A stretch of 64,000 nt of DNA. Source: Nitrososphaerota archaeon. GTDB lineage: Archaea; Thermoproteota; Nitrososphaeria; Nitrososphaerales; UBA183. Each line of letters opens with the position of its first letter. Position 1 is the stretch's first letter. Shown here piece by piece: positions 1,380 to 47,026 of this stretch. The position numbers and the translations under genes were made by a program. The stretch spans positions 1 to 64,000 of the forward strand of contig JAFMAA010000002.1 of NCBI GenBank assembly GCA_029785235.1, read 5' to 3'. The notes under the pieces are model-generated. The model had not been told where the DNA came from and ran no database searches. It was given only the letters and a program-made list of their open reading frames with translations.

Positions 1380-1613
1380 TCACAGCAGCTGTAAGAGGTT
1401 GTCTGGGTGTTGCACTGTTTTGGGCGGAGAGACTTGAACTGCGAAGTCGAGTTGGGCTGTGGTGTATCCTTCGCCGTTGGCCCAATACCTGGGGACGAAT
1501 GTTGGACCCATGTCGTGCACTATCATGGTCTCTCCGGTTATCCTGCTTTTGGCATAGTACCATCCGGGTTTTGCTTTCCGTGCGTTTTTCGGCGGGTCAT
1601 AGTCACTTGTCAT
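1380..1613 (-). CDS. Small tagged protein, paralogue of next gene upstream
   Basis: A 77-residue protein of unknown function, and the last gene of the minus-strand series. An AGGTGAA Shine-Dalgarno site precedes the ATG. Its C-terminal half aligns with the protein encoded at 1653-1940: both have (D/E)-(M/L)-G-P-x-x-(V/I)-P-R-Y, then a beta-rich stretch, then a shared tail. It ends in HPDNLLQLL, a member of the recurrent terminal motif described in the findings. The two genes look like an old tandem duplication. Confidence 0.75.
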   Translation of the reverse strand: MTSDYDPPKNARKAKPGWYYAKSRITGETMIVHDMGPTFVPRYWANGEGYTTAQLDFAVQVSPPKTVQHPDNLLQLL

Positions 1614-1652
1614 GCGTTCACCTGTTCGTTATATGTCGTTGTATGTGTGCAA

Positions 1653-1940
1653 TTACACGGCAGGTGTCGAATCCGGTGCGAGGAGCTGGAGCAGGGTGCT
1701 GGAGTCGTTGACCGTGTGGTGTTTTCTTGACTTTTCGCCGGGGGTGGGAGGAGTTATGATGAACTTGAGTTGGTTGTGGAAGAACGTCCTGCCACTCTCG
1801 TCCATTGCCGCGTATCGTGGTATGGTGTCTGGGCCCAGGTCTTCTACTTCTACCAATTCGTTTTTTACGAGGACTTCATAGTGATGGGGGCTGGTCTGTT
1901 TTGCGCCTGGCGGCGGGCTTTCGTCTAGTTCGTCCTTCAT
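1653..1940 (-). CDS. Small tagged protein, paralogue of gene at 1380
   Basis: A 95-residue protein of unknown function. The chosen ATG at 1940 has an AGGAGGG Shine-Dalgarno site and overlaps the upstream stop as ATGA, which argues for translational coupling. The region around residues 31-60 matches the downstream paralogue (LGPDTIPRY versus MGPTFVPRY). Near the C-terminus it carries NDSSTLLQLL followed by eight residues, so here the shared tag is not quite terminal. Confidence 0.75.
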   Translation of the reverse strand: MKDELDESPPPGAKQTSPHHYEVLVKNELVEVEDLGPDTIPRYAAMDESGRTFFHNQLKFIITPPTPGEKSRKHHTVNDSSTLLQLLAPDSTPAV

Positions 1941-2503
1941 AGGCGTCCCTCCTTTCTTAGGAGTTCGAGGGCGTAGTCCTTTGCGTGGTAGAGGTCGATA
2001 AGCCTGGGGAACCTGAAGAACGTGCCGTCGGTTCCGTCGACGACCCCGCAGATGTAGAAGTGCTTGATCTTCTCGTTCTCCGCCCACAGGGTGTACGGTA
2101 GCGGTGGATGTCCGCGGACGTCTTCATATCGGTAGACCAGGTGGTACCAGAGGGGGTTTGGGGATGGCTCCATGCATGACTTGATGGTGTCTTTGAGCGA
2201 CTTTGTCCATGAGCTGGTGAAATGGTACCGTTGGGGCCCCTTGTCTGACTTGCGCATTGACCAGAATCCGCCCCACACGCCCCGGTCTGCATAGGTACCT
2301 TCTGTCTCGATCTTCTTCCAGTCCTCCTCGGTCAACTTCCTGTTCGCACGTGGAAAGGTCTTCTTCAGTGCTTTCCACAGTTGGGCGATTTGAACATCGA
2401 GCCGCTTTTCGGTGTCAAAGTCGCGGGCGTTCATCGCTTCCACGGCTTTGTTGTTGAGTTCGGCGATCTGTTTCTCTATCTTTTCTTTCTCTGATCCTGT
2501 CAT
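1937..2503 (-). CDS. Hypothetical protein, 188 aa
   Basis: Not recognised. Residues 1-50 are a highly charged, helix-favouring segment (E/K-rich, probable coiled coil). The remainder is aromatic-rich with several W and Y residues. The stop overlaps the next start by 4 nt, placing it in the terminal operon. There is no signal peptide or membrane segment. Confidence 0.7.
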   Translation of the reverse strand: MTGSEKEKIEKQIAELNNKAVEAMNARDFDTEKRLDVQIAQLWKALKKTFPRANRKLTEEDWKKIETEGTYADRGVWGGFWSMRKSDKGPQRYHFTSSWTKSLKDTIKSCMEPSPNPLWYHLVYRYEDVRGHPPLPYTLWAENEKIKHFYICGVVDGTDGTFFRFPRLIDLYHAKDYALELLRKEGRL

Positions 2504-2545
2504 GGTTCTCTCTCCTTTACAGGCGGACCTATGATTGCGGTCCCA

Positions 2546-2851
2546 CTAGCGCAGCTTGCCTGCGGCGAGCTCTGCGATGATTTCTTCTTCGGTCCCAGCG
2601 TCTGGTTCGGTCGTGGCGTAGTAATAGGACGTGCGAAGGCGTTCTAGACGTTCCTGTATTGTTGTGTTAGACTCATGTCCTATGGGTTCGAAATGCGCCG
2701 CGATGTATGCAACGGTGTGACTGAGAGCGCGGGCCACCTTTACCATCGCTGCCACTGGCGTGTCAGCGTACACCGACCCATCGGCGCCGCATTCTCCGTA
2801 CATGACGTAGTAGTTCTTTCCTCTCACATCCCTGCTTATGATGTCTCTCAA
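2546..2851 (-). CDS. Hypothetical protein, 101 aa, TTG start
   Basis: The frame is open further upstream, but a GGGAGG site lies just before a TTG that overlaps the preceding gene's stop as TTGA. I therefore start at 2851. The protein begins LRDIISRD and contains a central alanine/valine helix and an acidic, helical C-terminus. Function is unknown. Confidence 0.65.
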   Translation of the reverse strand: MRDIISRDVRGKNYYVMYGECGADGSVYADTPVAAMVKVARALSHTVAYIAAHFEPIGHESNTTIQERLERLRTSYYYATTEPDAGTEEEIIAELAAGKLR

Positions 2852-3618
2852 CTTGTTTGCCTCCCTGAAACCTTCTTGGCGGTACCGGTGTTCATGCTCA
2901 TAACCGGCTGTATGAGCTCGTTCCATCGGTCCTTGTCTGTCTCACCTGGCAGGTATCTTCCAAGCATCACTGTCGGGAGACCCTTGCCTGGCCCCACTTC
3001 CATCAACGCGTCGTGGATCGCCTTCAGGTCTGCTCCTGTCTCCTTGTAGCTGCTAAGAAAGTCCTTGTACTCGCCTTCCCCTGAGCTGGTGTTGCGGAGT
3101 GGTTTCATGGTGAATATGTTGCCATCTTCGAGGTCGTACTCTGCGCAAGACACGGTGTCCGTTACGCTGTCTCCCTCCACCACCCAGACCTTCCCCTTGA
3201 AGCCGAGCATGCAGAGGTGGCCGAGCGCCACGGTCAAGAAGTCGTTGCTGGTGTCGTAGCCGAACGCTGTGTAGAACATGAGCTGCCGCCCGGCGGCTTT
3301 GCTGAACCAGACCTGGTAGAGCCCCAGGTCCTGTTCCCGTTCTGCCTTCCGGTACTTCTTGAGGTCCGGGTCCGCCGGCTCAGCCGCTAGTCGTACCTGG
3401 AAGGCCTTGGACTTCGCCCTGAGCTCGCCGTCGGTGTATTTGTGATCTTTCGCGTCCTGTTTGGCGCTTCTCACGTATTCGTCCAGGGCGTCCTCCCACT
3501 TGCGACTGGCTTCTGCCAAATCGGTCATGTCCTGGAACCCTGCTGCTGTCGCTGCCTTACGTAGCGCTTCGATGTCTATGCCTTGCGGCATCAACACATA
3601 CTTGTATCCCCATCCCAT
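2848..3618 (-). CDS. Hypothetical protein, 256 aa
   Basis: Not recognised. The N-terminal 90 residues are helical and charged. A central segment (about 105-150) is hydrophobic and aromatic (LYQVWFSKAAG, LMFYTAFGYDTSNDFLTVALGHLCMLGF), probably a globular core and not a membrane span. An AAAGGAG site lies before the ATG. Confidence 0.65.
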   Translation of the reverse strand: MGWGYKYVLMPQGIDIEALRKAATAAGFQDMTDLAEASRKWEDALDEYVRSAKQDAKDHKYTDGELRAKSKAFQVRLAAEPADPDLKKYRKAEREQDLGLYQVWFSKAAGRQLMFYTAFGYDTSNDFLTVALGHLCMLGFKGKVWVVEGDSVTDTVSCAEYDLEDGNIFTMKPLRNTSSGEGEYKDFLSSYKETGADLKAIHDALMEVGPGKGLPTVMLGRYLPGETDKDRWNELIQPVMSMNTGTAKKVSGRQTS

Positions 3619-4223: not shown

Positions 4224-4556
4224 CTACAGCAGCTCCAGGAATGCGGCCGAGTTCTTGACATGGGAGCGGATGTTACGCCGCGTGTTATTCATGACAAGTT
4301 GCCTTATTGATTCGACTGAAGTGACCACCGGGCTTGGAAACTCGGTGTACAGGCAAGTCTTGTCGTCGCTGCTGAGGATCTTGTCAGCTTCACCGCTCGT
4401 GAGCCTTGCCACGATCTGACCCTGGAAGTGCATGTTCCTCTTTGATTCTGCCATCTCCTTAGTCGATGCCACTGCCGTGATTTTCATCCAGTCTTGCAAG
4501 TGGGGGTGCACTGATTTCTCCCCTATTGCCCAGAACGTCTTTTCTTCTTTTGCCAT
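4224..4556 (-). CDS. Small tagged protein, 110 aa
   Basis: Unknown function. A mixed alpha/beta soluble protein that ends exactly in KNSAAFLELL, one of the shared terminal tags. The following gene begins immediately after its TAG. The tag varies at the usual D/N-P positions (N-S here) but keeps the F-L-E-L-L core. Confidence 0.75.
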   Translation of the reverse strand: MAKEEKTFWAIGEKSVHPHLQDWMKITAVASTKEMAESKRNMHFQGQIVARLTSGEADKILSSDDKTCLYTEFPSPVVTSVESIRQLVMNNTRRNIRSHVKNSAAFLELL

Positions 4557-11815: not shown

Positions 11816-12382
11816 CTAAGCCTTCTTGACGTCTAGTATCATACGGAACAGCTCTGCCTGCTCGATCGCGTCATCGAGGGCGTTGTGCGTGTGTTTCGCT
11901 GATGTCTTGAATCCTGCATCGTAGATGGCCCGTTTGTTGGTCTGGCGCCAAGCCTTTCCAAACTTCCCCATGTAGACCCCTTTCATGTCTATCGCGTTGA
12001 TCCCCAACGGATTGTACCCCAGGTATGTGTGGAAGTACCATGAAACGAAGAGGAAGTCGCTTGGCGCGTTGAAGAACACCCCGATGGGCTTGCCCTGTAC
12101 GTTCTTCTCAAGCCACTCTGCAAAGCTTCGCATGGCTGCCTCCGGCGACGAGCCTTGCTCCTCGCACTTCACCAGGAACTGGTCTCCGAGAACGTCTCTT
12201 GCTGAATCGGTGGCAGTTGCCCCTTCGAGAGGCTTGATCTCAACATAGAACCTAACATCAGGGTTGTCGACCAGGCACGCCCCTATGCTGAGCAGCGAGT
12301 ACTTTGGAGGTATGGGCCCAGTGTACTCGCAGTCGATGCTCACGTACAGTTTCCTTTCTTTCTCCAGAGCTGTTTCATTCAA
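11816..12382 (-). CDS. DEDDh-type 3'-5' exonuclease
   Basis: Predicted exonuclease of the DnaQ/RNase T/ExoX superfamily, 188 aa. Exo I is S-I-D-C-E-Y with Asp17 and Glu19. Exo II lies around NAPSDFLFVSWY. Exo III is H-N-A-L-D-D near residue 167, with the DEDDh histidine and last aspartate. It could process RNA or DNA ends; the substrate cannot be inferred. A second DnaQ-like protein is at 60790-61683. A TTAAAAC element 28-34 nt upstream of the ATG suggests a promoter. Confidence 0.8.
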   Translation of the reverse strand: MNETALEKERKLYVSIDCEYTGPIPPKYSLLSIGACLVDNPDVRFYVEIKPLEGATATDSARDVLGDQFLVKCEEQGSSPEAAMRSFAEWLEKNVQGKPIGVFFNAPSDFLFVSWYFHTYLGYNPLGINAIDMKGVYMGKFGKAWRQTNKRAIYDAGFKTSAKHTHNALDDAIEQAELFRMILDVKKA

Positions 12383-12450: not shown

Positions 12451-12684
12451 TCACTCCAATAGGCCCGACAAAACTTCTGGGTCGATAGTGGCGTTCTGGG
12501 ATTGGCGCCGGCCCGGTTCAGGGGCGGTTGAGACAACCCAGTCTTCGAATTGGTCGAGCGCCTCAGCGGCGTGTTGGATTATGGGTTCCGTGAGCGCCAC
12601 GTTTCCATAGGTGTCTTGCAGCTCCCATGCGCCTTCCAGAAGCTTTCTATATGGCGCCAGTCTGTTGTCTATCACGGTCTTCAT
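12451..12684 (-). CDS. Small tagged protein, 77 aa
   Basis: Unknown function. Helical N-terminal part, a short P/R/Q linker, then the terminal tag IDPEVLSGLLE. It begins a run of five consecutive genes (12451-14108) whose products all end in this tag. Confidence 0.7.
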   Translation of the reverse strand: MKTVIDNRLAPYRKLLEGAWELQDTYGNVALTEPIIQHAAEALDQFEDWVVSTAPEPGRRQSQNATIDPEVLSGLLE

Positions 12685-12956
12685 TTGTTTCTCTTGTCCT
12701 TGCTCGTTATCAGAGGCAGAAACACCGTTGGATCAATTGTCCGCCGTCTGGGCTTCGGCTTTGTTTTCTTACGGGCCTTCTCCCTTTCCTTCTCCACCAG
12801 CACGCCGCCCTTGCGGTATCTGATTCTTGCCAGGGTTTCGTGGCCGGCGCTGAAGTTGAACTGGAAGAAGGTACCTACATCTGTCCCTTCGAGTCGTACT
12901 TCATCCTCTGAAATCAGATAGACCTTCACCCGCGGGCTCTGACCTTTGTTGACCAT
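12681..12956 (-). CDS. Small tagged protein, 91 aa
   Basis: Started at an ATG with an AGTGAGA site. A beta-rich body (residues 5-45), a long basic segment (VEKEREKARKKTKPKPRRR), then IDPTVFLPLIT and a seven-residue basic end. The lysine/arginine stretch just before the tag looks like a flexible linker. Confidence 0.7.
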   Translation of the reverse strand: MVNKGQSPRVKVYLISEDEVRLEGTDVGTFFQFNFSAGHETLARIRYRKGGVLVEKEREKARKKTKPKPRRRTIDPTVFLPLITSKDKRNK

Positions 12957-12983
12957 TGTATGTCTCACTCTTTGTCCGTCTGC

Positions 12984-13217
12984 TCATAATGACAGGAGCA
13001 CTGTCGGGTCGATTTCACGCTTGGGGGCCTTCTCTCTGATCTCTTTCAGGGCCTGTTTGACCTGCTCCGGGTAAAGATAGATGAAGTGAGTTCCGGCGTT
13101 TCGTGACAGGGAAATAGCTCCGTTGTCGTACACACAGAGGTCTACCGAGTATTCTCCTGCAGAGTAATCATCGTTCTTTGCCTGCAGCTCTGTCCTTGAT
13201 ACGGGTTTGGGGTCCAT
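12984..13217 (-). CDS. Small tagged protein, 77 aa
   Basis: Started at the ATG at 13217; a GTG three codons earlier is possible. A compact alpha/beta body with an SVDLCVYDNGAISLSRN beta hairpin, a helix, then KREIDPTVLLSL at the very end. The tag differs from its neighbour's by only a few residues although the bodies are unrelated. Confidence 0.7.
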   Translation of the reverse strand: MDPKPVSRTELQAKNDDYSAGEYSVDLCVYDNGAISLSRNAGTHFIYLYPEQVKQALKEIREKAPKREIDPTVLLSL

Positions 13218-13233
13218 GAGAATCACATCAATG

Positions 13234-13785
13234 CTACTTTACTAATAGGCTCAGTATTTCCGGGTCGTTCACGCCCCTTGGGATGGCTTCCGGCCGCGTG
13301 ACTTTCTCAGCCGCTATCTTCCTTAGCGTGGCGAGTTGCCGGTCGACGAGTTCTTCTGCAAGAATCTTCCTGACTGTGCTTGCTGCTTTGAGGATGTTTG
13401 CGCTGTATCTTCGCATGGTCACTGCTTCCGCAACCAGTAAGGTCGCTATCAATGCCAACCATGCTCTGGATTCGTCTTTCTGGTCTTCGCTCTCCTCGTC
13501 TCTCATCTTCTTGGCAATCGCGATGATTTGGTTGACGAGAGAGTCACTGCGGAGCTCTTGGTCGACGGTCTCTGCGTTTTCTTGCGTGGGACTGGCAACC
13601 CATACATTGATTGTGCCAACAAGATGCCGTACCTTGCTATCGTGCTCCACATGCTCATACCGGTCTAACACTTCGGAGGCGCAGTAGACGCCAAACTTGA
13701 TGGCGGCCACCCTGTTCGTAAGGCACTTCTTCACATCGTCTTTAGAAAACAGCGGATCTGCCGCAGGGATTCTTGGCGTCTTCAT
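13234..13785 (-). CDS. Helical tagged protein, 183 aa
   Basis: Started at the ATG with an AGGTGAG site. Almost wholly helical, with a mildly hydrophobic helix near residues 113-135 (WLALIATLLVAEAV), so possibly membrane associated. It ends GVNDPEILSLLVK, the shared tag plus one lysine. Confidence 0.7.
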   Translation of the reverse strand: MKTPRIPAADPLFSKDDVKKCLTNRVAAIKFGVYCASEVLDRYEHVEHDSKVRHLVGTINVWVASPTQENAETVDQELRSDSLVNQIIAIAKKMRDEESEDQKDESRAWLALIATLLVAEAVTMRRYSANILKAASTVRKILAEELVDRQLATLRKIAAEKVTRPEAIPRGVNDPEILSLLVK

Positions 13786-13793
13786 GTTCTCAC

Positions 13794-14108
13794 CTAGATC
13801 AAAGTCAGCAATGTCATGGAGTCGCTGCACACGACCGATGGAGCTTGTGCCTTCGCTACTGGGGCGTCCAGGAGCTCGAGGTTTCTCAATTCGTCGATGC
13901 TTTCTTCGCCTTGGCGGATCCAGTTCGTTCTCTCCCGCCGGCCAGGTTTTACGTCTATTGTCACAGTTACGACTGCGCGCCGCCCATCGGCATGGGCATC
14001 AGTTATCGTCCCTACCATTCCAACATAGCACGTCGGCGAGTAGGTTTTCATGACCTTCACCCGCCGGCCTTTCAGCGTCGTGACGTCAAAGTCGCTTACT
14101 GTTGCCAT
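13794..14108 (-). CDS. KOW/SH3-like protein with terminal tag
   Basis: Residues 14-55 (RRVKVMKTYSPT ... GMVGTITDAHADGRR ... VTVTID) have the pattern of a KOW or SH3-like barrel. Such domains often bind RNA or ribosomal partners. After an A/P/V-rich linker it ends DSMTLLTLI, a tag lacking the proline. Confidence 0.65.
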   Translation of the reverse strand: MATVSDFDVTTLKGRRVKVMKTYSPTCYVGMVGTITDAHADGRRAVVTVTIDVKPGRRERTNWIRQGEESIDELRNLELLDAPVAKAQAPSVVCSDSMTLLTLI

Positions 14109-14113
14109 TCAAC

Positions 14114-14515
14114 TCACCGCGAGTAGTAATTGTGGATCATCTGTGCGATGAACGCCGACGCCGTTTCGTCTCGTTCTATGCCGTCAGGCCATGTTTGCAG
14201 GGCTTCAAGCGCCGGCTGACCAAGGTTTTCGTGGAACTTCCAATGCTTCAGTAGCCCTTTCTTCGTCGACTTGCCGTTGCCGTCGTAGTAGTACCTCCCT
14301 ATGAGGGTGACTATATGATGTGCGACGCCGGTTTTCAGGTCTCGGACTACGTAAAGCCGCGCATCACAGTAGTCCCATACGCGGCACATGGCATCCGCAA
14401 TGATCCCGCACCCTCCTGCTGTCCACGTGCCGTTCGGGAGTACAGTGTAGGACTCTTTCGACGTCACTATGCTCTTTATGGCACCTTCGATGGTCCGCTC
14501 TCTTGGTTTGCTCAT
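14114..14515 (-). CDS. Possible Cys-His hydrolase-like protein, 133 aa
   Basis: Contains W-T-A-G-G-C-G-I-I-A-D-A-M near residue 31, then A-H-H-I-V-T-L near 66 and Y-Y-Y-D-G-N-G. The Cys/His/Asp order is reminiscent of papain-like folds seen in many phage hypothetical proteins. That is pattern similarity only. An AAGTGATAT leader precedes the ATG. Confidence 0.6.
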   Translation of the reverse strand: MSKPRERTIEGAIKSIVTSKESYTVLPNGTWTAGGCGIIADAMCRVWDYCDARLYVVRDLKTGVAHHIVTLIGRYYYDGNGKSTKKGLLKHWKFHENLGQPALEALQTWPDGIERDETASAFIAQMIHNYYSR

Positions 14516-14516
14516 T

Positions 14517-15077: not shown

Positions 15078-15085
15078 GGTTTCTC

Positions 15086-15391: not shown

Positions 15392-15421
15392 ATTGCTTCA
15401 CTCGGATATTTTCAACACTCA

Positions 15422-15451
15422 CTTCGGCCGGTCTTCTTTTAACGGCCGAAG
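15422..15451 (-). terminator. 9-bp hairpin after the 15453 gene
   Basis: Perfect arms CTTCGGCCG/CGGCCGAAG start two nt after the TGA stop at 15453. The loop holds TTAAAAGAAGAC. The location fits a terminator, while the TTAAAA loop also resembles the promoter-like element seen at other gap positions. Confidence 0.55.
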
Positions 15452-15452
15452 G

Positions 15453-15874: not shown

Positions 15875-16504
15875 CTATAGGGCTAACAGCGTCAACGGGT
15901 CGATGCGGTCGGCATTGGCCGTTGCCTCTACGGAATATGCGAGTTTGCCGTTGGGACCTGTGATCCCCTTCTCATCCGTCTTCTGAAGACCGAGTGTATG
16001 AAGAGCTGAGTCAAGGCTTGTATCGAAGCGCCTTGCATTGCCCAGCATTATCCACGGTGATTGAGAGGAGCTGAGATTCTGTTCGTCTACGCCCCGACAC
16101 TCTGTAATCCCCTTCTCCAAGTCTATGTACCATACTTGGTGGTCCAGTATTATGAACTGGTTGCAATGGGGGTCAGCGAGGGCCTTCTTTGGTCGCAAGT
16201 GCCTGTAGCTCGTTATCAGGCTCAGCAACGTGTTGGGATCACGTACACGCGGGCGCTCTTTCTCGTAGCGGTCGATCAGCCTTCGTAAGTCCTTTTTGAT
16301 TGCCTTGACCTCCGCGGCTGTGTATCCTGACTTGGACAGTATGTCAGCGGAGCCCTGCTCAATGGCAATTTCGCCTCCTGCTGAGACGATCTGAAAGCCT
16401 GTCGAGTCTCCATGACTCTGCCTGGCTATCTCGACCAAGTAAGACTCCTTGCCTTGTACTTCCTGCCCCTCTATGAGCCTCGTTACTATGAAGTGAGCCA
16501 ACAC
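15875..16504 (-). CDS. Two-domain protein with two copies of the tag
   Basis: 209 aa from a GTG start. Domain one (1-90) ends in RDPNTLLSLITSYRHL, then domain two follows and the protein terminates DRIDPLTLLAL. The tag thus appears both at the domain junction and at the C-terminus, as if two tagged genes had fused. This is the strongest sign that the motif is a modular unit. Confidence 0.7.
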   Translation of the reverse strand: MLAHFIVTRLIEGQEVQGKESYLVEIARQSHGDSTGFQIVSAGGEIAIEQGSADILSKSGYTAAEVKAIKKDLRRLIDRYEKERPRVRDPNTLLSLITSYRHLRPKKALADPHCNQFIILDHQVWYIDLEKGITECRGVDEQNLSSSQSPWIMLGNARRFDTSLDSALHTLGLQKTDEKGITGPNGKLAYSVEATANADRIDPLTLLAL

Positions 16505-16568: not shown

Positions 16569-17144
16569 TCACTTTGTGTCTACAAGAGTCAGGTCGCTGA
16601 CTTTGACGTTGTAATCGTCCCTGGACCACCCTGGCAGGACCCCTTCTGGTGTCGTCGAATCTGCGAGGCGCACTATCACCATCGATCTGCTATCATCAAC
16701 CACAAGGACGTTAGCGTACTTGCCTGCAACCTCTTCCTTTGGAACTTTCTGCATATTGCCGAAAGCGTCCTTTTGGGTCGCATTCCCATCCAGTAAGACT
16801 GTATCACCCACGAAGATGATATGCGCCTTCATGTATGAGAGTGCAGCGCTCATGGCAGCAGACAGGTCTAATGGCTTTGTGAGTCTTGTGAAGCGCTGTG
16901 AGTCGAACATAATCACTTCATACATTGATGAAGGGTCAGTGGGATACACCTTCTCGACGTACAAGTCGATGACACCCTGGGAACCCTTTGTTGTGAAGTT
17001 CCTCTTCCAATGAGCGGCTTCTCTAGGACTTGGTGCTTTGTACCACCTACCTGGTAGTTCTATGAGTGTATCGAAGCTGTCAGAGATGGTGACGGTCGAC
17101 GTGTCGTAATCCGTTATCAGCCGAAGCAGTACTTCTGGGTCCAT
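16569..17144 (-). CDS. Tagged protein with the motif at its N-terminus
   Basis: The AGGTGAG site points to the ATG at 17144, giving a protein that begins MDPEVLLRLITDYD. The same sequence that ends other proteins here forms the N-terminus. The 191-residue body is beta-rich, with a late segment IVRLADSTTPEGVLPGW that resembles an SH3-like turn. Function is unknown. Confidence 0.7.
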   Translation of the reverse strand: MDPEVLLRLITDYDTSTVTISDSFDTLIELPGRWYKAPSPREAAHWKRNFTTKGSQGVIDLYVEKVYPTDPSSMYEVIMFDSQRFTRLTKPLDLSAAMSAALSYMKAHIIFVGDTVLLDGNATQKDAFGNMQKVPKEEVAGKYANVLVVDDSRSMVIVRLADSTTPEGVLPGWSRDDYNVKVSDLTLVDTK

Positions 17145-17858: not shown

Positions 17859-18233
17859 TTAGAGGAGCGTCAAAAGCACGCTAGGGTTTGGCACACCCCG
17901 GGTAGCGTTAGGCAGCACCGTAGCATCTTCCGCATAACCCTGGTTCTCGATATCGAACTTCTCAAAGATACGGGCTATCTCCTTCCTGAATCGTGGCTTG
18001 ACCATCTTCGCGACCTCGTCGTCTACATTTCCGTTCGACAAGATGAGGTAGGTGGCTTCTGCTTTCTCGACCGCGGCGAGAAGCGCCGCACTGAGTGTCA
18101 CCTCTGTCCAGCGCCACGATTCGTATGCAAGGTTACCAAGTGCGTCCCTGCCCTTCTGTGACACAAGCCAAACGTTGCCGGCTGGCTTGTACGGCATTCC
18201 ATAGCTGAACTCACGTAACAAGTAAGCGTTCAT
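17859..18233 (-). CDS. Tagged protein, 124 aa
   Basis: Started at an ATG with a CGGTGAA site. Alpha/beta body; residues 20-60 include a VWLVSQKGRDALGN strand-helix resembling the start of a small winged helix. It ends PNPSVLLTLL, the terminal tag. Its stop lies just before the AGGTGATC of the next gene. Confidence 0.7.
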   Translation of the reverse strand: MNAYLLREFSYGMPYKPAGNVWLVSQKGRDALGNLAYESWRWTEVTLSAALLAAVEKAEATYLILSNGNVDDEVAKMVKPRFRKEIARIFEKFDIENQGYAEDATVLPNATRGVPNPSVLLTLL

Positions 18234-20848: not shown

Positions 20849-21060
20849 TTGGCTTCGCCTCCGATCAGCTCCAAGAACGCTGCTGGGTCGTGGACCACAG
20901 TCTGCTCGATAACCTGGCTGCCCTGTTCCGGCATCGATTTGTCTTCGGCCTTGGCCCCAGTTGCTTTCAACCGCTTGCTCTTGAAACTGCGCCGGAAATA
21001 GTCGTAGTCCAGCTGAACGTCTTTGAGATTCTTTATCGCGTCTAGGCTGGTTTCATTCAT
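20845..21060 (-). CDS. Small tagged protein, 71 aa
   Basis: GGAAGTGG site before the ATG. A charged helical N-terminus with a basic FRRSFKSKRLK patch, then the tag HDPAAFLELIGGEAK near the end. The F-L-E-L-I-G form matches the tag of the 46601-47026 protein (NPTTFLELIGS). Confidence 0.7.
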   Translation of the reverse strand: MNETSLDAIKNLKDVQLDYDYFRRSFKSKRLKATGAKAEDKSMPEQGSQVIEQTVVHDPAAFLELIGGEAK

Positions 21061-34759: not shown

Positions 34760-34760
34760 C

Positions 34761-36329
34761 TCACTGACTACTTGCCTTACTTCCGAGTGTTTTGAGTGCG
34801 CCACTTATGTCCACCTTCTTGTCAAGCATGCCAAGAAGTTCTCCATCGTCTTCCGAGATGGCAACTTCCTTCATCCTCTCCAAGAACTCGTCGAGGAAGG
34901 CAAGGACGACTGGGACATCTTTGTTGTCGTTGCGTATCTTCAGGCCGTCCTTTATGTTGCGTGTCTTTACGAACTCCTCGATTCGGCTGAACTGGTCTGA
35001 GAAGTTGATGAGAAGCTCGTTGTACCTCTTGATGATCTCGTCAGTTGACTTCAGTATGTCGGCTTTGAAGTCTGCACTCCACTTGATGCGGTGAGGGAGA
35101 GCGTGCCTCAAGGCGAATATGACGTCTTTGGCTGTTGCTACCCGCCTCCCCTCTATGAAGGCACTGGCCTTGATGGCGTTGTTGACGGCTATGGAGCTGC
35201 GCACCTTTGTGACGTTGGCCTTTGAGCATATCGACCAGTTGTCTTCGCCGGCGGCTCCTCCGAACTTGCAGAGCTCGCACAAGTGTTCTACCGCAAAGAC
35301 GTCGGCGCCATCGGCTTTCTCCTTCCCTTCTACATTGAAGTAGCACTTCGACATAGCGGAGAGCAGCCCAGCCACGAACACCTGTATCTCTGTGGGGATG
35401 GTGACGCTCTTGTAGAGCTGGCGTGCCTCGTGAAGCGCCTCTATGGGAAGGGGGTCTACGGCGGGTTCGTCAGAGTCGAACCTGGTCTGCATTGTGCGAA
35501 TTTCTGCCGTTGTTGGGGATGACACGAATGCGCTGAACATGTATCTGTCGAGCGACGCGAAGTCTATCATGGAAACGTTCGTCTGATAGTTGTCGTTGAG
35601 GGGGTTGGTAAGGAGCACTATCGCTTCTGGCTCTACGTGGCCAGTCCCGACGACCGAGTCATACTCCCTATCGTTGAGCATGTTGTGGAGTATGCTGATC
35701 AGCCTCGGATTCTTGAAGACCTCGTCAAGCACTATGAAGTCGGCGCTGGCCATGTAGTTGCGCTTCACCATGTGAGGCGGGGTATCCTTCAACAACAGAG
35801 GGTTGTCAATGCCGTACCCTATGACGTCCTCCTGCTCAGAGAAAGTGTTGACCTGCCTGATGTACATGTCAAGCGGAACTCTGATGGGGTCGCCCTTCAT
35901 GGTGTACTTCAGGGCGTCGATGTTGGCCGACACCTCTATTTTGCCGCCGTATTGCGCATATTGGATGTCAATCCCGGCCAGCAGGTTGCGTGCAAGCATG
36001 TCCTCGTCGACTTTCAGGTCTTCGGCCATCACGTGGAGACGCGACTTCAGTTGCTCGGCGTTCTCGACGCTGAATTTCATGTGATAGACAGGCTTTGTGA
36101 AGAGCTTGCCTAGGAACTTCGACATGCTCGTCTTATAGGTCCCATGAGACCCGTAGAGCAACACAGTCCCCTTGGTCAGAAGGCCGCAGAGGAGGGTCTT
36201 GATAGCATCTCTTTGGGTCAACCCCATGTAAGTCGTAGAGACCAGTTCTGTGATGTTCTTCAGGGCCTTTGAGACGTTGTTGAAGTTCTCGTCGGTTACT
36301 GTTTGTGCTTCTTGCTTCTTCTTTGGCAT
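34761..36329 (-). CDS. MoxR-type AAA+ ATPase
   Basis: 522 aa. Variant Walker A G-S-H-G-T-Y-K-T-S (about 61-69), Walker B F-I-V-L-D-E-V-F-K-N with N-P-R-L, and sensor-1/arginine region L-T-N-P-L-N-D ... S-L-D-R-Y. MoxR ATPases remodel or load cofactors into partners together with VWA proteins. The coupled VWA gene downstream supports a two-component chaperone. Both are large for the family. Confidence 0.85.
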   Translation of the reverse strand: MPKKKQEAQTVTDENFNNVSKALKNITELVSTTYMGLTQRDAIKTLLCGLLTKGTVLLYGSHGTYKTSMSKFLGKLFTKPVYHMKFSVENAEQLKSRLHVMAEDLKVDEDMLARNLLAGIDIQYAQYGGKIEVSANIDALKYTMKGDPIRVPLDMYIRQVNTFSEQEDVIGYGIDNPLLLKDTPPHMVKRNYMASADFIVLDEVFKNPRLISILHNMLNDREYDSVVGTGHVEPEAIVLLTNPLNDNYQTNVSMIDFASLDRYMFSAFVSSPTTAEIRTMQTRFDSDEPAVDPLPIEALHEARQLYKSVTIPTEIQVFVAGLLSAMSKCYFNVEGKEKADGADVFAVEHLCELCKFGGAAGEDNWSICSKANVTKVRSSIAVNNAIKASAFIEGRRVATAKDVIFALRHALPHRIKWSADFKADILKSTDEIIKRYNELLINFSDQFSRIEEFVKTRNIKDGLKIRNDNKDVPVVLAFLDEFLERMKEVAISEDDGELLGMLDKKVDISGALKTLGSKASSQ

Positions 36330-38881: not shown

Positions 38882-38907
38882 CCTGGAGCCTCTAGAGAAG
38901 CTCCAGG
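38882..38907 (-). terminator. 8-bp hairpin overlapping the 38892 stop
   Basis: Perfect arms CCTGGAGC/GCTCCAGG with a 10-nt loop. The stem overlaps the last codons of the 38892 gene and a GTTTTA run follows, the arrangement of an intrinsic terminator. Confidence 0.65.
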
Positions 38908-39959
38908 AACACTGCCGCCTTGTCTCCCTTCAGGGCCAATGCCGCAAGCCGGAGGTTTTCTTCGGCTGTAGCCCTTGGAGCTATCTGGAGGAATTGTGCC
39001 ACTACCTCGGATGCGTGCTGGATTGCCTGTGCCTTGTCCGCCTTCTTTGACTTGAGCGCATCTACTACGTCGTCAAGGACGTTGAAGACCTGCGACGTAG
39101 AATCCGCACCGCTCACAACCAGCTTCTGTCTCAACTTCTTGTACTTCGCATTGACAGCCTTCGGCTTCCCGGCGGCTGCTTCGGCGAGGAGGTGCACAAA
39201 GACGCTGAGCTCATTCTTGAAGCGGTCCTCTATGGCTTTCACCATCTCCGCTTCCTTCACCTGCATGCGCTTCTTGAGGTTGTCAAGGCCCGCCTTCTCC
39301 TCGTCTGATATCTTGCCCAGCATGCTCTTTACGCGGTCCTCCGCATACTTGACGTAGACTGATGGCTCGATCCAGATCTGGCTGTGCTCCACCCTCATAG
39401 GATAGACGGAGTTAGGCGGGGTCGTGACGCTGATACCGTAGCTTGCAAGGTAGTCCCTTACTTCAGCCCACCGCTTGCTAGTACTGTACCTGTCAATCCC
39501 GTCGATCACCATCTTCTTCATGAGGCGAGTATTCAGCTCGTCTATCTCCTCCTGAAGGTCAGGGATCTTGTTCACCATGACGATGTGAACCCGCTTCTTC
39601 CCTATTGTGAGAATGTCCCCGTGGTTCTGCAGAATGTTGTACCTGACAGTCCTAAGGCGCTTGAGGAGATTCGGGATGTAGAGCGGGACCCAGTAGAACG
39701 TCGCCGCCTTACTGTTCTTGCCGTACCCCACGAACACCCTCTTACCTCCCTTGGCCACCCCCTTCCGGTAGCGACTGTCGATGGACTTCAGCTTCCTGGT
39801 AAGACCGGTGACGAACTCCATGTGCTTGGCGTTAGGAATCGACGAAATGTCGACCGTCAGCTTAAGGAGCTCCTCAGATGGACCCTCTAGCTCGATCTGT
39901 TCGCTGTTGAACAGGACCCGCTTGCCCAACCGTACCTTTGTCTGTTTTACCTGCTGCAT
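38892..39959 (-). CDS. Large tagged protein, 355 aa
   Basis: Started at the ATG with an AAGTGAG site. Beta-rich first 130 residues, then helical with coiled-coil segments (EEIDELNTRLMKKM, LDNLKKRMQVKEAEMVKAIEDRF). It ends DKAAVFLELL. This is the largest protein with the terminal tag at its C-terminus, though its tag lacks the D/N-P pair. Function is unknown. Confidence 0.7.
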   Translation of the reverse strand: MQQVKQTKVRLGKRVLFNSEQIELEGPSEELLKLTVDISSIPNAKHMEFVTGLTRKLKSIDSRYRKGVAKGGKRVFVGYGKNSKAATFYWVPLYIPNLLKRLRTVRYNILQNHGDILTIGKKRVHIVMVNKIPDLQEEIDELNTRLMKKMVIDGIDRYSTSKRWAEVRDYLASYGISVTTPPNSVYPMRVEHSQIWIEPSVYVKYAEDRVKSMLGKISDEEKAGLDNLKKRMQVKEAEMVKAIEDRFKNELSVFVHLLAEAAAGKPKAVNAKYKKLRQKLVVSGADSTSQVFNVLDDVVDALKSKKADKAQAIQHASEVVAQFLQIAPRATAEENLRLAALALKGDKAAVFLELL

Positions 39960-39965
39960 GTGCAC

Positions 39966-40843: not shown

Positions 40844-40888
40844 GGTTCTCAAAAAAGAACCGCCGGGAGGGACTTAACGTCCCTCCGG
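40844..40888 (-). terminator. Double hairpin after the ParB-like gene
   Basis: Two adjacent inverted repeats. 40863-40888 (CCGGGAGGGAC/GTCCCTCCGG, one bulged base) overlaps the stop codon of the 40874 gene. 40844-40861 (GGTTCT/AGAACC) has a T-run loop on the minus strand. Together they look like a strong terminator that ends just before the next gene. Confidence 0.65.
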
Positions 40889-42076
40889 CTTCAACTGCCC
40901 GCTCTTGTCCAGGACATACCGCTTGTCGTTGGCCGTGACCGTGTACTTCTTGTTGTCCACGTCACAGAAGACTGACACCTTCACCGGTGTGTCTGCCAAT
41001 GCTTCGAGCTCGCCAGACCGTGAGGTAGCGCCAGTAAGGCCAGAAGCGCCTACTGAAGCCAGTTTCACGACCATCGGCTCGCCGCACTTCCAACAGTTGT
41101 GTGATGCCTCGACGAAGAAGTCGGGGGTCACATCAGTCTCGCTTGACACGGTGTTGACAGGGCTCGACAGAGGATCTGCGAATTTCACCTTAGCGGTGAT
41201 CGTCGCTTCGAAGAAATTAGCGGCCCCGCACGCCTTCTTCTGGCACTTGACCATGTAGCCATCGCCAGTGAGCCAGTCGCCGTTGACAGGCTTCGGCATA
41301 GGGACATCTGGAATTGAACTTGGAGCTTCCCTGGCATCCTCACGCGAAGGCGCCTCGGGAGTGTCGTATTGTGCTGGGGTTGGTGAAGGCTCCCCTAGTT
41401 GTGGAAGGATGGTGAGCAGTGCGTTGCTGTCGATGAGTGATGCGAGGGTCGTTGCTGGCATCTGTGTCTTGCAGACGTGGTCGGCTAGCGCCACCATGCT
41501 CTCTGGCGTTCTGACCTTGCCGATCTCGTCAAGGTGCTTCATGGTGAGCCTGAACCCTGTCTTGCGCTCTGTGTCATAGATGGACTTCATGACGTCCTCG
41601 GTGAAGACGTCGTACAGCTTTGCTCCTGCGTCGACCTTGGAAGAAGTCAGGTTGATCTGCTGAAGTATTTCATCCTTGGTGGACCTGTCGAAGCGGTTGC
41701 TGAGGGTGTGATACAGCTTGATCTTCTCTATCCAGTCGAGATCGCTCCGCACGGCGTTTTCTACGTACGCCCTTGCGAATATGTCGCTGTCAGAGATGTT
41801 CTTGCTGACCATGGCCCTATAGTTCTTGATCTTCTTGTCCTTCTGCGCGGCCATCTTCAGTGCGGCCAGCCTCTTCTGCCCGATGTAGATCAGGTACTTC
41901 CCTGACTCTTCATCTAGCACCGCATATCCCGGCTCAAGCTGTCCCTTGGTCATAATGGAGGCGCATAGCTCTTCCACGTCAGACCCAGAGTAGTTGAACC
42001 TGAACACTGTCAGAGGATGTGGCTCGCACTTCGAAAGCGGTATTTCGTTGTATACATCGTTAGTTTTAGTTACCAT
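40874..42076 (-). CDS. ParB-like protein with C-terminal zinc ribbon
   Basis: 400 aa from the ATG with GGAGGTGA. Residues about 10-75 match the ParB/sulfiredoxin nuclease-like domain: I-P-L-S-K-C-E-P-H-P, then V-E-E-L-C-A-S-I, then Y-I-G-Q-K-R-L-A-A-L (the GERR-like box, Q and K replacing E and R). A helical region to about 215 could hold the HTH. It continues into SNALLTILPQL, which resembles the shared tag, and a P/E linker. The C-terminal third has CQKKAC ... CWKCGE, a zinc ribbon. No ParA is seen nearby. Confidence 0.7.
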   Translation of the reverse strand: MVTKTNDVYNEIPLSKCEPHPLTVFRFNYSGSDVEELCASIMTKGQLEPGYAVLDEESGKYLIYIGQKRLAALKMAAQKDKKIKNYRAMVSKNISDSDIFARAYVENAVRSDLDWIEKIKLYHTLSNRFDRSTKDEILQQINLTSSKVDAGAKLYDVFTEDVMKSIYDTERKTGFRLTMKHLDEIGKVRTPESMVALADHVCKTQMPATTLASLIDSNALLTILPQLGEPSPTPAQYDTPEAPSREDAREAPSSIPDVPMPKPVNGDWLTGDGYMVKCQKKACGAANFFEATITAKVKFADPLSSPVNTVSSETDVTPDFFVEASHNCWKCGEPMVVKLASVGASGLTGATSRSGELEALADTPVKVSVFCDVDNKKYTVTANDKRYVLDKSGQLKPEGR

Positions 42077-42083
42077 TGTTCTT

Positions 42084-43217
42084 TCACCTCCTCCTGGTCC
42101 CGTCGAATTCTGACGGAACAAGCAATCCCTTGATGCCAACGTAATTGACATCCTCCTTGCTTGCCCGTCCAATCCACGCCATCCGGAAGAATTCCACTGC
42201 GTTCTGCTTCGTTGTTGGGTTCATGTTCTTGAACACCTTCTTATCCGACTCCATCAGTGCGTTCAGGGCGATCGTCTCGGGCGACTTTCCGTGGTCCTCA
42301 TGGATCATCCTGTAGTACGTCTCCTTGTACTCTCTGAGCAGGTCTATCATGTGGCCACTCTGGTCGTAGAGAGTCCTACTCATTGGGTAGTTGTTTGATG
42401 ACGGGTTGAACTTCTTCATGATGTTCGCGATCTTCATCTCGCGATACTGGATGCGTGATTTGTCGTCGATGGTGCCCGAGACGCGCTTCTCTGTCTTGAA
42501 GAGCCCAAAGCACCGCTTGCTGCTGACCCTCACATTCACCCGCGAGCTGTCAAACATGGTCCCGATTGCCTTGAACTGGCCCTTTGAGACAGCCACCGTA
42601 GCTCCGACGAGCCGTATGTTCAGCTCGCCGTTCTTGTCGACGTCTGCCAGATCTGGCTTCAGTTTGAGGTCGTAGATGTTGTTGTGAAGCTTCACCAGCT
42701 TCTTCTTACCCTTGTACTGGCGCCCGTCTATCAATATCTGCACCTTCGATGGGTCGCTCGTCATTATCCTGAACGATACCCTCTTCACCTTGAAGAGACG
42801 AAGGTTAGACTTCGACAGAAGGTCCTGGAGCTCCTCGTTGGTCGTAATCATACTGACCTGAGAAGCCGCCTGTTTCACCAGATAGGCAACAGCCTGGTTG
42901 AGAGTGAGGCCGCTCTGCTTCCTGTATTTCTCGATCTGAGGCTCCACCATCTCCATTATCCGCTGCTTCACTTGGTCGCTGAGCGGGAGAGTGCTGACGG
43001 CAGCCTTGACTACGTTGTGGGGCCGCGCATTCTTGGTGATTGCGTATTGGCCCTTTATGAAGTCGTATTGCTTCCTTGTTATGGGGCGGCCACCGAAGAT
43101 CTGGCCCATTTCCGATATCGATGGGGGCACCTCACCATGAGGCGACATAGAGTCGTACACATGTCCACTGTTTTCTTCTTCGCTCAATTCCATCTCCTCG
43201 AATCTTGCGCTCTGCAT
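42084..43217 (-). CDS. Hypothetical protein, about 377 aa
   Basis: Start uncertain (GTG 43229, ATG 43217 or ATG 43193). Acidic N-terminus, helical region to about 150, then a beta-rich middle (VKRVSFRIMTSDPSKVQILIDGRQY; KLVKLHNNIYDL) and a helical basic C-terminus. It is upstream of the ParB-like gene and 8 nt from its start, so probably functionally linked. Not recognised. Confidence 0.65.
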   Translation of the reverse strand: MQSARFEEMELSEEENSGHVYDSMSPHGEVPPSISEMGQIFGGRPITRKQYDFIKGQYAITKNARPHNVVKAAVSTLPLSDQVKQRIMEMVEPQIEKYRKQSGLTLNQAVAYLVKQAASQVSMITTNEELQDLLSKSNLRLFKVKRVSFRIMTSDPSKVQILIDGRQYKGKKKLVKLHNNIYDLKLKPDLADVDKNGELNIRLVGATVAVSKGQFKAIGTMFDSSRVNVRVSSKRCFGLFKTEKRVSGTIDDKSRIQYREMKIANIMKKFNPSSNNYPMSRTLYDQSGHMIDLLREYKETYYRMIHEDHGKSPETIALNALMESDKKVFKNMNPTTKQNAVEFFRMAWIGRASKEDVNYVGIKGLLVPSEFDGTRRR

Positions 43218-43882: not shown

Positions 43883-46087
43883 TCAGCTGACGGCATTTAT
43901 CGCCAGCTCGACGTCTCCAGCCATGTCTTCGTCTTTCGACCGCGCTACTCCTTTCATGAGGAGCAGTGCAAGTTTCTTGTCCTTCGCGGCGGCGTAGATG
44001 CGCAGGAGCAACCATGCCGTGTTTATGCGGTGGTCGCGGCTCCCGTACCCATCATGAACCTGGTAAAAGGGTGTGCCAGTTATGGTCTCGAATTCTTCGC
44101 TCGGGTCTATTGAGAAGGTGAACGCTTTTCCGTTCTTTGTGAGGTACGTGGCTATCTCGAATAGCCGGTCGGCCTTGTCGAGTATCACTACTCTCTTGTC
44201 GTTGGGGTAGATTGTGGAGGCGATGCTAGGGTCATCAAACATGCCTAGAAATATGGTATCATGTGTGAGGAGGTCCTTCACGAGCAGTGTGCCCTTGTTG
44301 GTGACCTGCTGGGTTTTCTCGACCCTATCTGTGAATTCGTCAAGCGTCTCTCCACCTTTGATGTCAACTGCGGAAGTGATTGTGTACTTCGTGGGGAATG
44401 ACTCGAGTAGCTCCGAGTATTTCGTAACCGAGTCCTTCCTGCCTATCTTGATTAGGCCTGTGACGACGACATCCTTGGCGTCTGCGACCGTTGTAGTCTC
44501 GTCAACGAAGGAGTAGGTTGATCTAGCCTTTGACTGGTGGACCGTGTACCCGCGGGCACTCTTTGGCCGCTTGGGCATCTTCAGATTGTTGTCGGTGATG
44601 AACTTCTTTGCGCCCTTCAAGTTCAGTTGCGATATTATCTCCATGATCCTTGGGTCTTGGTCAGCCATTATGATTATGGCCCGAGGGTAGACCTGACTCA
44701 GCAGTTTCAGATGCCTGAAAGTGTAAGGTTCATCTTCTATGAACAGCTCGTCCGTTTTGTACTCGGTGAGCATCGACGCCAACTCGATAATTTGGGCACG
44801 CCTTGCCCGTCCGTGTACCCCCCTTACGCGTGCGCCGAATCTAAGGGCGCCAAGCAGCGCATTAGTTTCTCTGTCGAGGAGGGTTTGACCGGCTTCATCG
44901 GTCCAGGAGTTGGTGTTCGCGAGGAACAACAGGACTGCCTTGTCGACTTTGCTCAGCTTGATGAATTCGTTGACGTTATGGACGCTGTATTTCGAGAAGT
45001 ATTGTGTCAGTGTAGGCCACAGTTTGGCCTGTAGCTGTTCTTCTGTATCTTCTTTGAGGCGCTCTCTGTCTGCTGTGGGTGGGAATGTGCGTTCGTCGGT
45101 GATGCATATCAGCGCTCTGCTGAATGGAAGCTTCAGGTTGGTAGCAACTGGGAGGTTGAGGAGAACGGCTTTCGTGCCATCTCGCTCTATCCTCGGAATT
45201 GAAGGAGAGTTACTATCGGTGCTTTGAGTTATGTTGACAGCGTAGACGTCGAACCCTGGCAAGGTGAATTTGATGAGTTCGCTGTAGCTATATTGACCTG
45301 AGCTGTAGTATCGGCTGGCGTAGCTGTCTAGGAATCTGTCTGTTTCCATCATTACCGAGGCGTAGGTGTAGTTGAGCTTGGTGCGTTCCTTCTTATCCCC
45401 GTCTGCTAGGGTGAGGAATGTGTCTATTGGCGATAGTTTGCAGGCGTGCTTGATGTATGCGACCAGTTTTAGTGGGTCTATCTTCTCATAGATGGCCATG
45501 CTCACTGTCGTCCCGTAGGTCTCCATGGCTGGTGTTGGGAGTATGGAGAAGGCCATCCCGTTCTTGCCCTCTACAGAGAAGCAGCCCGTCTGCCCATCCT
45601 TGGTTCTGTACTTCGTCTGCAGGACCATCCTGTCTGAAAGGGTTGTCCAGGCCAGTCGCCCGAAGCCGAATTGTCCCGGCTTTGTAGGATCGAAGTTTCC
45701 AGACCTTCCCACTACGACATATACGTCCCTGAACATGCTGTATGTGATGCCGGTGCTGTCGGCCTCGGCTATCACAAGGGTCCTGTTTGTCATGTCGTAG
45801 GTGATCTCTATTCTTGGTGAAGCGCAGTACAACTCCTTTGCATTGAGGCATGCCGTGATAGCGTTGGCATAGGTTTCCCTGAAGCCGCTCTCGAAATTAG
45901 CGTATATGCCATTGGCGATTCTTGGTAGGACCGCTTCGGCGTCCAGCTGGACGCGGATCAGCCCGTTGCCGTCGGCCAGCTCCGAGAGTTCAGATGCTAT
46001 GGCACCCTTTTCCATTGCAAGGGGAGTTATCTCTGGGCCAGGCTGTCTGTAGAACGGCTCTTCCTTCTCAGTTTCTTGTTCTGTCAT
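43883..46087 (-). CDS. rIIA-like GHKL ATPase, paralogue 1
   Basis: 734 aa. GHKL (Hsp90/gyrase B/MutL-type) ATP-binding marks: N-box F-R-E-T-Y-A-N-A-I-T-A-C (69-80), A-D-S-T-G-I (109-114), and Q-F-G-F-G-R (139-144). A later P-T-A-D-R-E-R-L-K-E-D box matches the conserved motif beyond the ATPase domain of phage rIIA-like proteins. Length is close to T4 rIIA (about 725 aa). rIIA affects lysis inhibition and exclusion in T4, but its biochemical role is poorly known. Two paralogues are at 47887 and 51871. Confidence 0.75.
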   Translation of the reverse strand: MTEQETEKEEPFYRQPGPEITPLAMEKGAIASELSELADGNGLIRVQLDAEAVLPRIANGIYANFESGFRETYANAITACLNAKELYCASPRIEITYDMTNRTLVIAEADSTGITYSMFRDVYVVVGRSGNFDPTKPGQFGFGRLAWTTLSDRMVLQTKYRTKDGQTGCFSVEGKNGMAFSILPTPAMETYGTTVSMAIYEKIDPLKLVAYIKHACKLSPIDTFLTLADGDKKERTKLNYTYASVMMETDRFLDSYASRYYSSGQYSYSELIKFTLPGFDVYAVNITQSTDSNSPSIPRIERDGTKAVLLNLPVATNLKLPFSRALICITDERTFPPTADRERLKEDTEEQLQAKLWPTLTQYFSKYSVHNVNEFIKLSKVDKAVLLFLANTNSWTDEAGQTLLDRETNALLGALRFGARVRGVHGRARRAQIIELASMLTEYKTDELFIEDEPYTFRHLKLLSQVYPRAIIIMADQDPRIMEIISQLNLKGAKKFITDNNLKMPKRPKSARGYTVHQSKARSTYSFVDETTTVADAKDVVVTGLIKIGRKDSVTKYSELLESFPTKYTITSAVDIKGGETLDEFTDRVEKTQQVTNKGTLLVKDLLTHDTIFLGMFDDPSIASTIYPNDKRVVILDKADRLFEIATYLTKNGKAFTFSIDPSEEFETITGTPFYQVHDGYGSRDHRINTAWLLLRIYAAAKDKKLALLLMKGVARSKDEDMAGDVELAINAVS

Positions 46088-46112
46088 TATTCTCTTATCC
46101 TCTTTGTTTGCT

Positions 46113-46361
46113 TTAACGCACCGACCTTACGACACCGTCGTCTTTCATCAGGCTCTTGACCCGTCTTGGCTCTCTCGTCCAACCGATTAACGGGTTCCAG
46201 TAGCCGAAGCAGTTTTTGCAGAAGAGGAATCCTTCCTCAGCTGCTCCTGCGTCTCCATCATGGCGACTTCCTGGCGCCAGCTTCGCGTGGATGCACTCGA
46301 AGGTCGTGACCTTAGGCGGAGCACGTGCCTGCCTTCCACGAAGGTTTGGCTTCCGCGCCAT
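46113..46361 (-). CDS. Small zinc-binding protein, 82 aa
   Basis: CIHAKLAPGSRH ... CKNCFGYW gives a C-x-H/CxxC zinc site; the ends are basic (MARKPNLRGRQAR, RRVKSLMK). Its stop codon is part of the GCGTTAAAGCAAACAAAGAGG element 30 nt before the first GHKL gene. Confidence 0.6.
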   Translation of the reverse strand: MARKPNLRGRQARAPPKVTTFECIHAKLAPGSRHDGDAGAAEEGFLFCKNCFGYWNPLIGWTREPRRVKSLMKDDGVVRSVR

Positions 46362-46408
46362 GATAGCGAGCGCTTAATACTTGTTTGGATGTGTGCTTTT
46401 TGATAACA

Positions 46409-46549
46409 ATGGGAAGAATAGTAGACGGAGAGATTGTCCTTACCGAAGAGGAAACAAATCGGCTCCTAGAGATTAGAATCAAGGAACGAAATCGCGAAAC
46501 ATCGGACGAAGATAGGAAACTTATATTCCTGGCAAGAAGCGTTCGCTAG
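46409..46549 (+). CDS. Only plus-strand gene, 46 aa
   Basis: ATG at 46409, TAG at 46547-46549. The product MGRIVDGEIVLTEEE... ends in a charged helix (DEDRKLIFLARSVR). Codons such as AGA, ATA, CTT and GAA dominate, so it is A/T-richer than its neighbours. Upstream CTTAATA about 40 nt from the ATG could be a promoter. GCGAA/TTCGC arms near 46567-46583 may form a terminator. It occupies a 239-nt gap and opposes all other genes, so it may be a recent arrival or a regulator. Confidence 0.55.
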   Translation: MGRIVDGEIVLTEEETNRLLEIRIKERNRETSDEDRKLIFLARSVR

Positions 46550-46600
46550 GAATAAACCTCTGTTGGCGAATTTCATTTTCGCTTGTCACTATTAACCCCC

Positions 46601-47026
46601 TCAGTTGGTTATGCGAGGCACACTGCCGATCAATTCCAAGAACGTCGTTGGATTGACCACATGGCGGGATCTCCGAACTGCCGTCGTCAGATACTGCTTC
46701 CAGTCATGCGGTTCGACCCATGACAGGTCGGATACCGCCCTTTTGATGGCGACGCCTTGCTTCCACTTTGGATAGACCGTGTCCATTACCAGCCTGAGCA
46801 TAGCTTCTTGGTTTCTATGGTCTATCGTGTTTAGGATGCCAGTACAGGCAGACCCACCTTCTACAATCATCCACTTGTCGGGTGGTATCATCCTGGCCAC
46901 CGTGAAGCGCAGCCTGCCAAGTTCGCCAGAAAACGACTCGAGGATGACCTTCAGATCGTTATGTGTGAGCTGCAGGTACCCTTCGTATGTCATAGATATT
47001 GTGCCTTCCACATGACTCACTTCCAT
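46601..47026 (-). CDS. Tagged protein, 141 aa
   Basis: No clear Shine-Dalgarno lies before the ATG at 47026. A GTG at 47011 with GGAAGTGAG upstream is an alternative. An alpha/beta body with TVARMIPPDKWMIVEGG, then the end NPTTFLELIGSVPRITN. The FLELIG tag matches that of the 20845 product. A T-rich GTTTTTACG element lies just upstream. Confidence 0.65.
   Translation of the reverse strand: MEVSHVEGTISMTYEGYLQLTHNDLKVILESFSGELGRLRFTVARMIPPDKWMIVEGGSACTGILNTIDHRNQEAMLRLVMDTVYPKWKQGVAIKRAVSDLSWVEPHDWKQYLTTAVRRSRHVVNPTTFLELIGSVPRITN

Follow-up and report, generated by a model that had tools for sequence, protein, structure and literature searches.

A nine-residue motif on mostly unrelated proteins of a large phage-like genome as a candidate docking peptide

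The window analysed here, a stretch of 64,000 nucleotides (contig JAFMAA010000002.1, positions 1 to 64,000, of assembly GCA_029785235.1, assigned to a Nitrososphaerota archaeon), encodes 14 proteins that carry variants of one nine-residue motif, [D/N][P/S]xx[L/F]LxL[I/L], hereafter called the tag. The source of the window is likely a large phage, and proteins identical or nearly identical to those of the window are found on contigs of 311,674 and 314,598 bases. The tag is a real and unusual multi-protein motif, and docking is its most likely function. We put a probability of roughly 0.6 on the reading that it is a position-independent docking motif that brings at least a dozen proteins to one common partner.

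An initial annotation, made without database searches, had listed 13 tagged proteins. All 13 open reading frames (ORFs) are real and lie on the minus strand, and each carries a variant of the motif 0–8 residues from its stop codon. The strict form [DN][PS]xx[LF]LxL is present in nine of them, including 1653 (proteins are named by the lower coordinate of their ORF). The other four are looser variants: 1380 has H in place of D, 12451 and 13234 carry S at position 6, and 38892 lacks the [DN][PS] cap. ORF 1653 probably begins with the ATG that ends at 1940, giving 95 residues. A six-frame regular-expression scan added two copies, an internal one in 15875-16504 and an N-terminal one in 16569-17144, bringing the total to 15 copies on 14 proteins, with eight of the 14 tagged genes clustered in 12451-18245:

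1383..1409, minus strand: tag HPDNLLQLL, C-terminus of ORF 1380-1613 (77 residues)
1680..1706, minus strand: tag DSSTLLQLL followed by 8 residues, ORF 1653-1940 (95 residues), paralogue of 1380-1613
4227..4253, minus strand: tag NSAAFLELL, C-terminus of ORF 4224-4556
12457..12483, minus strand: tag DPEVLSGLL followed by E, ORF 12451-12684
12708..12734, minus strand: tag DPTVFLPLI followed by TSKDKRNK, ORF 12681-12968
12987..13010, minus strand: tag DPTVLLSL, C-terminus of ORF 12984-13226
13240..13266, minus strand: tag DPEILSLLV followed by K, ORF 13234-13830
13797..13823, minus strand: tag DSMTLLTLI, C-terminus of ORF 13794-14108
15878..15901, minus strand: tag DPLTLLAL, C-terminus of ORF 15875-16504
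16214..16240, minus strand: internal tag DPNTLLSLI (residues 89-97 of 209), ORF 15875-16504, new relative to the earlier list
17115..17141, minus strand: N-terminal tag M-DPEVLLRLI, ORF 16569-17144, ATG at 17144 with AAGGTGAG upstream, new relative to the earlier list
17862..17888, minus strand: tag NPSVLLTLL, C-terminus of ORF 17859-18245
20863..20889, minus strand: tag DPAAFLELI followed by GGEAK, ORF 20845-21069
38895..38921, minus strand: tag KAAVFLELL, C-terminus of ORF 38892-39965
46628..46654, minus strand: tag NPTTFLELI followed by GSVPRITN, ORF 46601-47026

The comparison with shuffled C-termini that the initial annotation had proposed comes out as a clear excess. Tails were taken as the last 22 residues of 112 minus-strand genes, a set from which the gene caller leaves out 1653. 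The strict form is found in 8 of the 112, whereas 2000 shuffles gave 0.014 on average and one at most. Elsewhere in those 112 genes it occurs twice, as the internal and N-terminal copies already listed, and in the plus-strand ORFs it is found in 0 of 333. In a profile built with each copy left out in turn, together with its paralogue (for 1380 and 1653) or the second copy of the same protein (for 15875), and with 12681 and 12984 left out singly, 13 of the 15 copies score 11.4 or more, the weak scorers being 13234 (7.4) and 1380 (6.0). The full profile, run over 25,755 positions, places ten non-tag positions above 7.4, the best at 12.8 and 11.3, and shuffled proteins average 7.15 positions with a score above 8. 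As an observation in its own right, the ParB-like protein encoded at 40874-42172 has a sub-threshold tag-like stretch, DSNALLTIL (residues 248-256, profile score 12.8), just before a proline-rich stretch, and this is a possible further internal tag.

The same scans were applied to 50 kb each of the phages XacN1, G and T4. The looser regular expression matched 0 of their 291 tails, with two matches inside XacN1 proteins, and no position in the 291 genes reached a profile score of 14. With the two-strand gene caller used for these controls, which loses some tagged genes, the window still gave 7 tails and 10 positions at 14 or above. These figures bear directly on an explanation without any shared function, in which amphipathic terminal helices recur by themselves, gene duplication multiplies them, and the pattern was picked by eye: 8 tails against 0.014 expected, and 10 high-scoring positions against none in the controls, both speak against it.

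The initial annotation had described the bodies of the tagged proteins as unrelated, and by sequence comparison this holds for most of them. It fails for 1380 and 1653, which are paralogues (E about 5e-6), and may fail for 12681 and 12984, a possible paralogous pair (E 5e-4 by BLASTP without composition correction, and 0.01 by phmmer over linker and tag). These one clear and one possible pair are what an explanation without shared function can draw on. No other tagged pair falls below E 0.1 by phmmer, and the next-best BLASTP matches among the tagged proteins (E 0.026-0.08) mostly include the tag in the alignment. Expansion of one gene family was considered and rejected on the lack of body matches at that threshold beyond the two pairs. 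Ten tagged proteins matched no Pfam family above cut-off and no PHROG better than E 0.0057 in family scans that covered 1380, 16569 and 46601 only in a pooled set and left out 20845, and the 38892 family, compared with PDB sequences, gave weak matches only, to helical or unrelated stretches, at E 0.013 or worse. Fourteen copies are preceded by at least 12 residues, and in every one of them one to four of the 12 residues just before the tag are hydrophobic.

Because the pattern had first been spotted by eye, tests blind to the motif were also run. When five positions were compared in a reduced alphabet, the tag pattern ranks first, at 8 of 112 tails; the top counts were 5-7 over 60 shuffles and 4-7 over 40 internal-segment sets, all of them below the tag. 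The other two tests were not significant, and a view of the tag as functionless takes support from them: with six reduced positions the real maximum was 4, a count that 11 of the 60 shuffles and 7 of the 40 internal sets equalled or exceeded, and with four exact residues the real maximum was again 4, a count attained in 33 shuffles out of 200 and in 7 internal sets out of 100. All five patterns at the maximum in the four-residue test resemble fragments of the tag. Blind support is thus positive in one of three tests, and modest. Taking both sides together, we regard the absence of any shared function as very improbable.

The tag copies have a mean DNA identity of 51%, and all six leucine codons are used across the copies at position 8. 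Among pairs of leucines in the same column, 52 of 243 (21%) have a common codon, compared with 25% expected from codon usage in the longer minus-strand ORFs of the window (the pairs are not independent). Because the leucine codons match no more often than usage would predict, selection appears to act on the peptide. The same ground served to reject a DNA-level repeat, recent copying of DNA and, at the ends of genes, a terminator or a ribosome-binding site, since each would lead one to expect matching codons and the codons differ.

Relatives that had diverged from the window's proteins were recovered for two of the six tagged families queried, and the tag is kept in all four of these homologues. 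For 38892, three relatives (57, 57 and 89% identity) all end in FLELL. For 46601, one relative at 85% identity keeps VVNPTTFLELIGSV unchanged while three of its five last residues differ. This one relative, P0009, came from a mixed query of four proteins that otherwise returned four identical or near-identical copies. The conservation at 38892 is consistent with function and falls short of proof. In a separate observation, the longest contig in the protein cluster of 15875-16504 has 8,753 bases, compared with 314,598 for clusters of other tagged proteins, and this gene may vary among otherwise near-identical genomes.

D or N followed by P or S is a common helix start, and the tag is probably helical, with positions 5, 6, 8 and 9 on one side of the helix. 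AlphaFold2 models built from shallow alignments give the tag a terminal helix of its own in both proteins modelled, at residues 349-356 of 38892 (mean predicted local distance difference test score, pLDDT, 55.5) and 126-134 of 46601 (mean pLDDT 40.3). We propose that the tag would form a nine-residue helix capped by D/N-P/S, with its hydrophobic face at positions 5, 6, 8 and 9, which a variable linker would carry on different, mostly small proteins of the large phage-like genome. All the tags would then occupy one groove of a shared partner. This partner is most likely a hub that the element itself encodes, and it would be DNA-bound. That one such partner exists, element-encoded and bound to DNA, we infer. 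The initial annotation had offered docking, sorting and turnover as roles for a signal read by one partner. Its docking signal is favoured by the many bodies that carry one nine-residue motif on variable linkers at C-terminal, internal and N-terminal sites; its single partner might be a scaffold, a compartment, a virion core or a DNA-bound hub.

Turnover fares worse. If the tag were a hydrophobic C-terminal degron, recognised by a host protease or by AAA machinery of the element, this would suit the seven copies whose hydrophobic residues are the last of the protein (1380, 4224, 12984, 13794, 15875, 17859 and 38892). Six of the 15 copies sit badly with any signal that requires a free C-terminus: one is internal, one is N-terminal, and four are followed by 5-8 further residues (1653, 12681, 20845 and 46601). 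Such a degron would also have no need of the recurrent D/N-P/S. Because the motif also occurs before trailing residues, internally and at an N-terminus, we read it as a docking peptide rather than a free-end signal, and with this position independence against it the C-degron was set aside as having very little probability.

The nearest functional precedent, in logic and with no claim of membership, is the T4 sliding clamp. The part of the T4 report drawn on here describes gp43, gp55 and gp33 as having similar, interchangeable C-termini that bind the sliding clamp, and gp55 as having a divergent linker, with fusions carrying an internal motif still functional (PMC2988020). Besides the clamp loader, three tails are named in that part of the report (PMC2988020), compared with 14 tagged proteins here. 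Like the T4 clamp epitopes, the tag is short and hydrophobic and is found on different phage proteins at the C-terminus or close to it, with 13 of the 15 copies lying 0-8 residues from the stop, one internal and one N-terminal. Unlike the T4 tails, which read from the sequence as ...KASLDFLFG and, with trailing residues, ...SPSLDFLYEAND, and thus have the core SLDFL[F/Y], the tag has DPxxLLxL[I/L], with a D/N-P/S cap in place of the D-F. The SLDFL[F/Y] core is found in 0 of the 15 tag copies, and the 50 kb of T4 that include gp43 and gp55 gave no profile match of 14 or more. No DNA polymerase, late sigma factor or clamp of the element was recognised within the window. The PCNA box (QxxLxxFF) and the bacterial beta-clamp motif (QL[S/D]LF) are likewise short hydrophobic docking peptides, often terminal. 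Their glutamine and aromatic positions are absent from all 15 tag copies, and the earlier statement that the tag is not a PCNA-interacting peptide stands.

The tag might instead be an address for a compartment or the interior of the virion, read by a shell, core or portal protein. One tag on many unrelated small cargoes, at N- as well as C-terminal sites, would suit such a sorting signal. The capsid targeting sequence of T4 is one short terminal signal on several small internal head proteins, and it is N-terminal and cleaved, unlike the mostly C-terminal tag. Bacterial microcompartments offer a second possible likeness: the part of a report on encapsulation peptides considered here describes a short helix fused via a disordered linker to different cargo proteins (PMC12339742), and for the tag the two low-confidence models suggest such a helix. 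Microcompartment encapsulation peptides are encoded with shell proteins; no shell family is among the Pfam matches listed for the 64 kb window (one table giving 25 of 39 families). The tag motif also differs from the known encapsulation peptides of bacterial microcompartments. More broadly, the matches listed for the window (two tables, giving 25 of 39 families and 25 of 55) include no shell, capsid, prohead or other virion family. The parts of two reports considered here describe nucleus-forming jumbo phages as lacking a terminal import signal (PMC11087766, PMC12908238), and because of this a sorting tag would be new for such phages. Sorting is the main rival to docking on one partner, and we consider it unlikely.

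In another arrangement no separate reader would be needed, the tags binding one another to form a mixed complex or condensate. The leucine-rich, probably amphipathic helix would lend itself to such self-association, and the clustering of eight of the 14 tagged genes within 12451-18245 is as might be seen for subunits of one assembly. The recurrent cap and the nine-residue register suggest a specific groove instead, and we hold self-association to be highly unlikely.

Several observations weigh against docking on one common partner, beyond the two non-significant blind tests given above. First, no partner or hub was found in the 64 kb window, which is part of a genome of probably 311-314 kb. 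Second, the tag is absent from the ends of the topoisomerase (21104), the RNA ligase (4589) and the kinase (31870), and these untagged enzymes leave the case for a replication hub neutral to unfavourable. Third, queries with 15875, 17859, 4224 and 13794 returned identical or near-identical copies only, in the case of 15875 just the protein itself, and in both 57% relatives of 38892 the tag, with seven of nine residues kept, is about as conserved as the body. Finally, both AlphaFold2 models are of low confidence and too weak to carry the helical reading alone.

The tagged genes are set among densely packed small genes, which seem to lie almost entirely on the minus strand. The window has a G+C content of about 54% and no detected tRNAs. 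Neighbouring genes to which a function can be given are the following, each by its lower coordinate:

4589: RNA ligase
11816: RNase T-like exonuclease
19266: dual-specificity phosphatase
21104: topoisomerase
28378: ATP-binding domain of a pyruvate phosphate dikinase type enzyme
31870: polynucleotide-kinase-like protein
34761: MoxR-like AAA protein
40874: ParB-like protein

Scans of viral and genome contig collections, with one to six short patterns per scan that distant relatives could escape, found no relative of the element. Five queries of a phage collection and three of a plasmid collection went unmatched. The topoisomerase found 50 phage records, every one below 60% identity, and is too general to place the element. 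One protein of the window matches the PADLOC entry 'Effector, Exonuclease' (E 9.9e-54), and is perhaps the exonuclease at 11816-12382.

Other features of the window stand apart from the tag. The pyruvate phosphate dikinase type enzyme is split, with its ATP-binding domain (28378-29292) and mobile domain (29319-29699) on separate adjacent genes. At 33212-36329, the MoxR-like AAA gene overlaps a gene with a DTSGS...GGTS...DGE pattern and no Pfam match. This pattern resembles the metal site of von Willebrand A domains, and the two genes are a possible pair of MoxR and von Willebrand A proteins in a phage-like genome. Three paralogues of about 750 residues (43883-46087, 47887-50172 and 51871-54132; 31-32% identity to one of them) have a GHKL-like pattern (DSxG, GQFGFGR), with weak matches to Hsp90 chains (E 0.011) and phrog_23723. 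They resemble T4 rIIA, and three such copies within 10 kb are odd. The adjoining ORFs 47092-47391 and 47506-47799 have a common end, LAPGIY-x-[IV]RHVRDYTPRRNMLD, and are probably tandem paralogues.

A bolder version of docking on a common partner, which we put forward tentatively and think rather doubtful, is that the tag serves a large phage as a general, position-independent address that directs many unrelated proteins to one dedicated receptor, for example on a replication compartment or a DNA-bound hub. If true, such an address tag would be a true sorting code of a bacterial or archaeal virus. Should the partner prove to be a compartment, the question whether terminal sorting signals occur in any large phage would have its answer. 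In the literature searched, no short docking motif common to many proteins of one phage turned up. With about 14 tagged proteins in roughly one fifth of the genome, many uncharacterised small genes could be assigned to one machine, and the tag peptide is a bait that could identify that machine.

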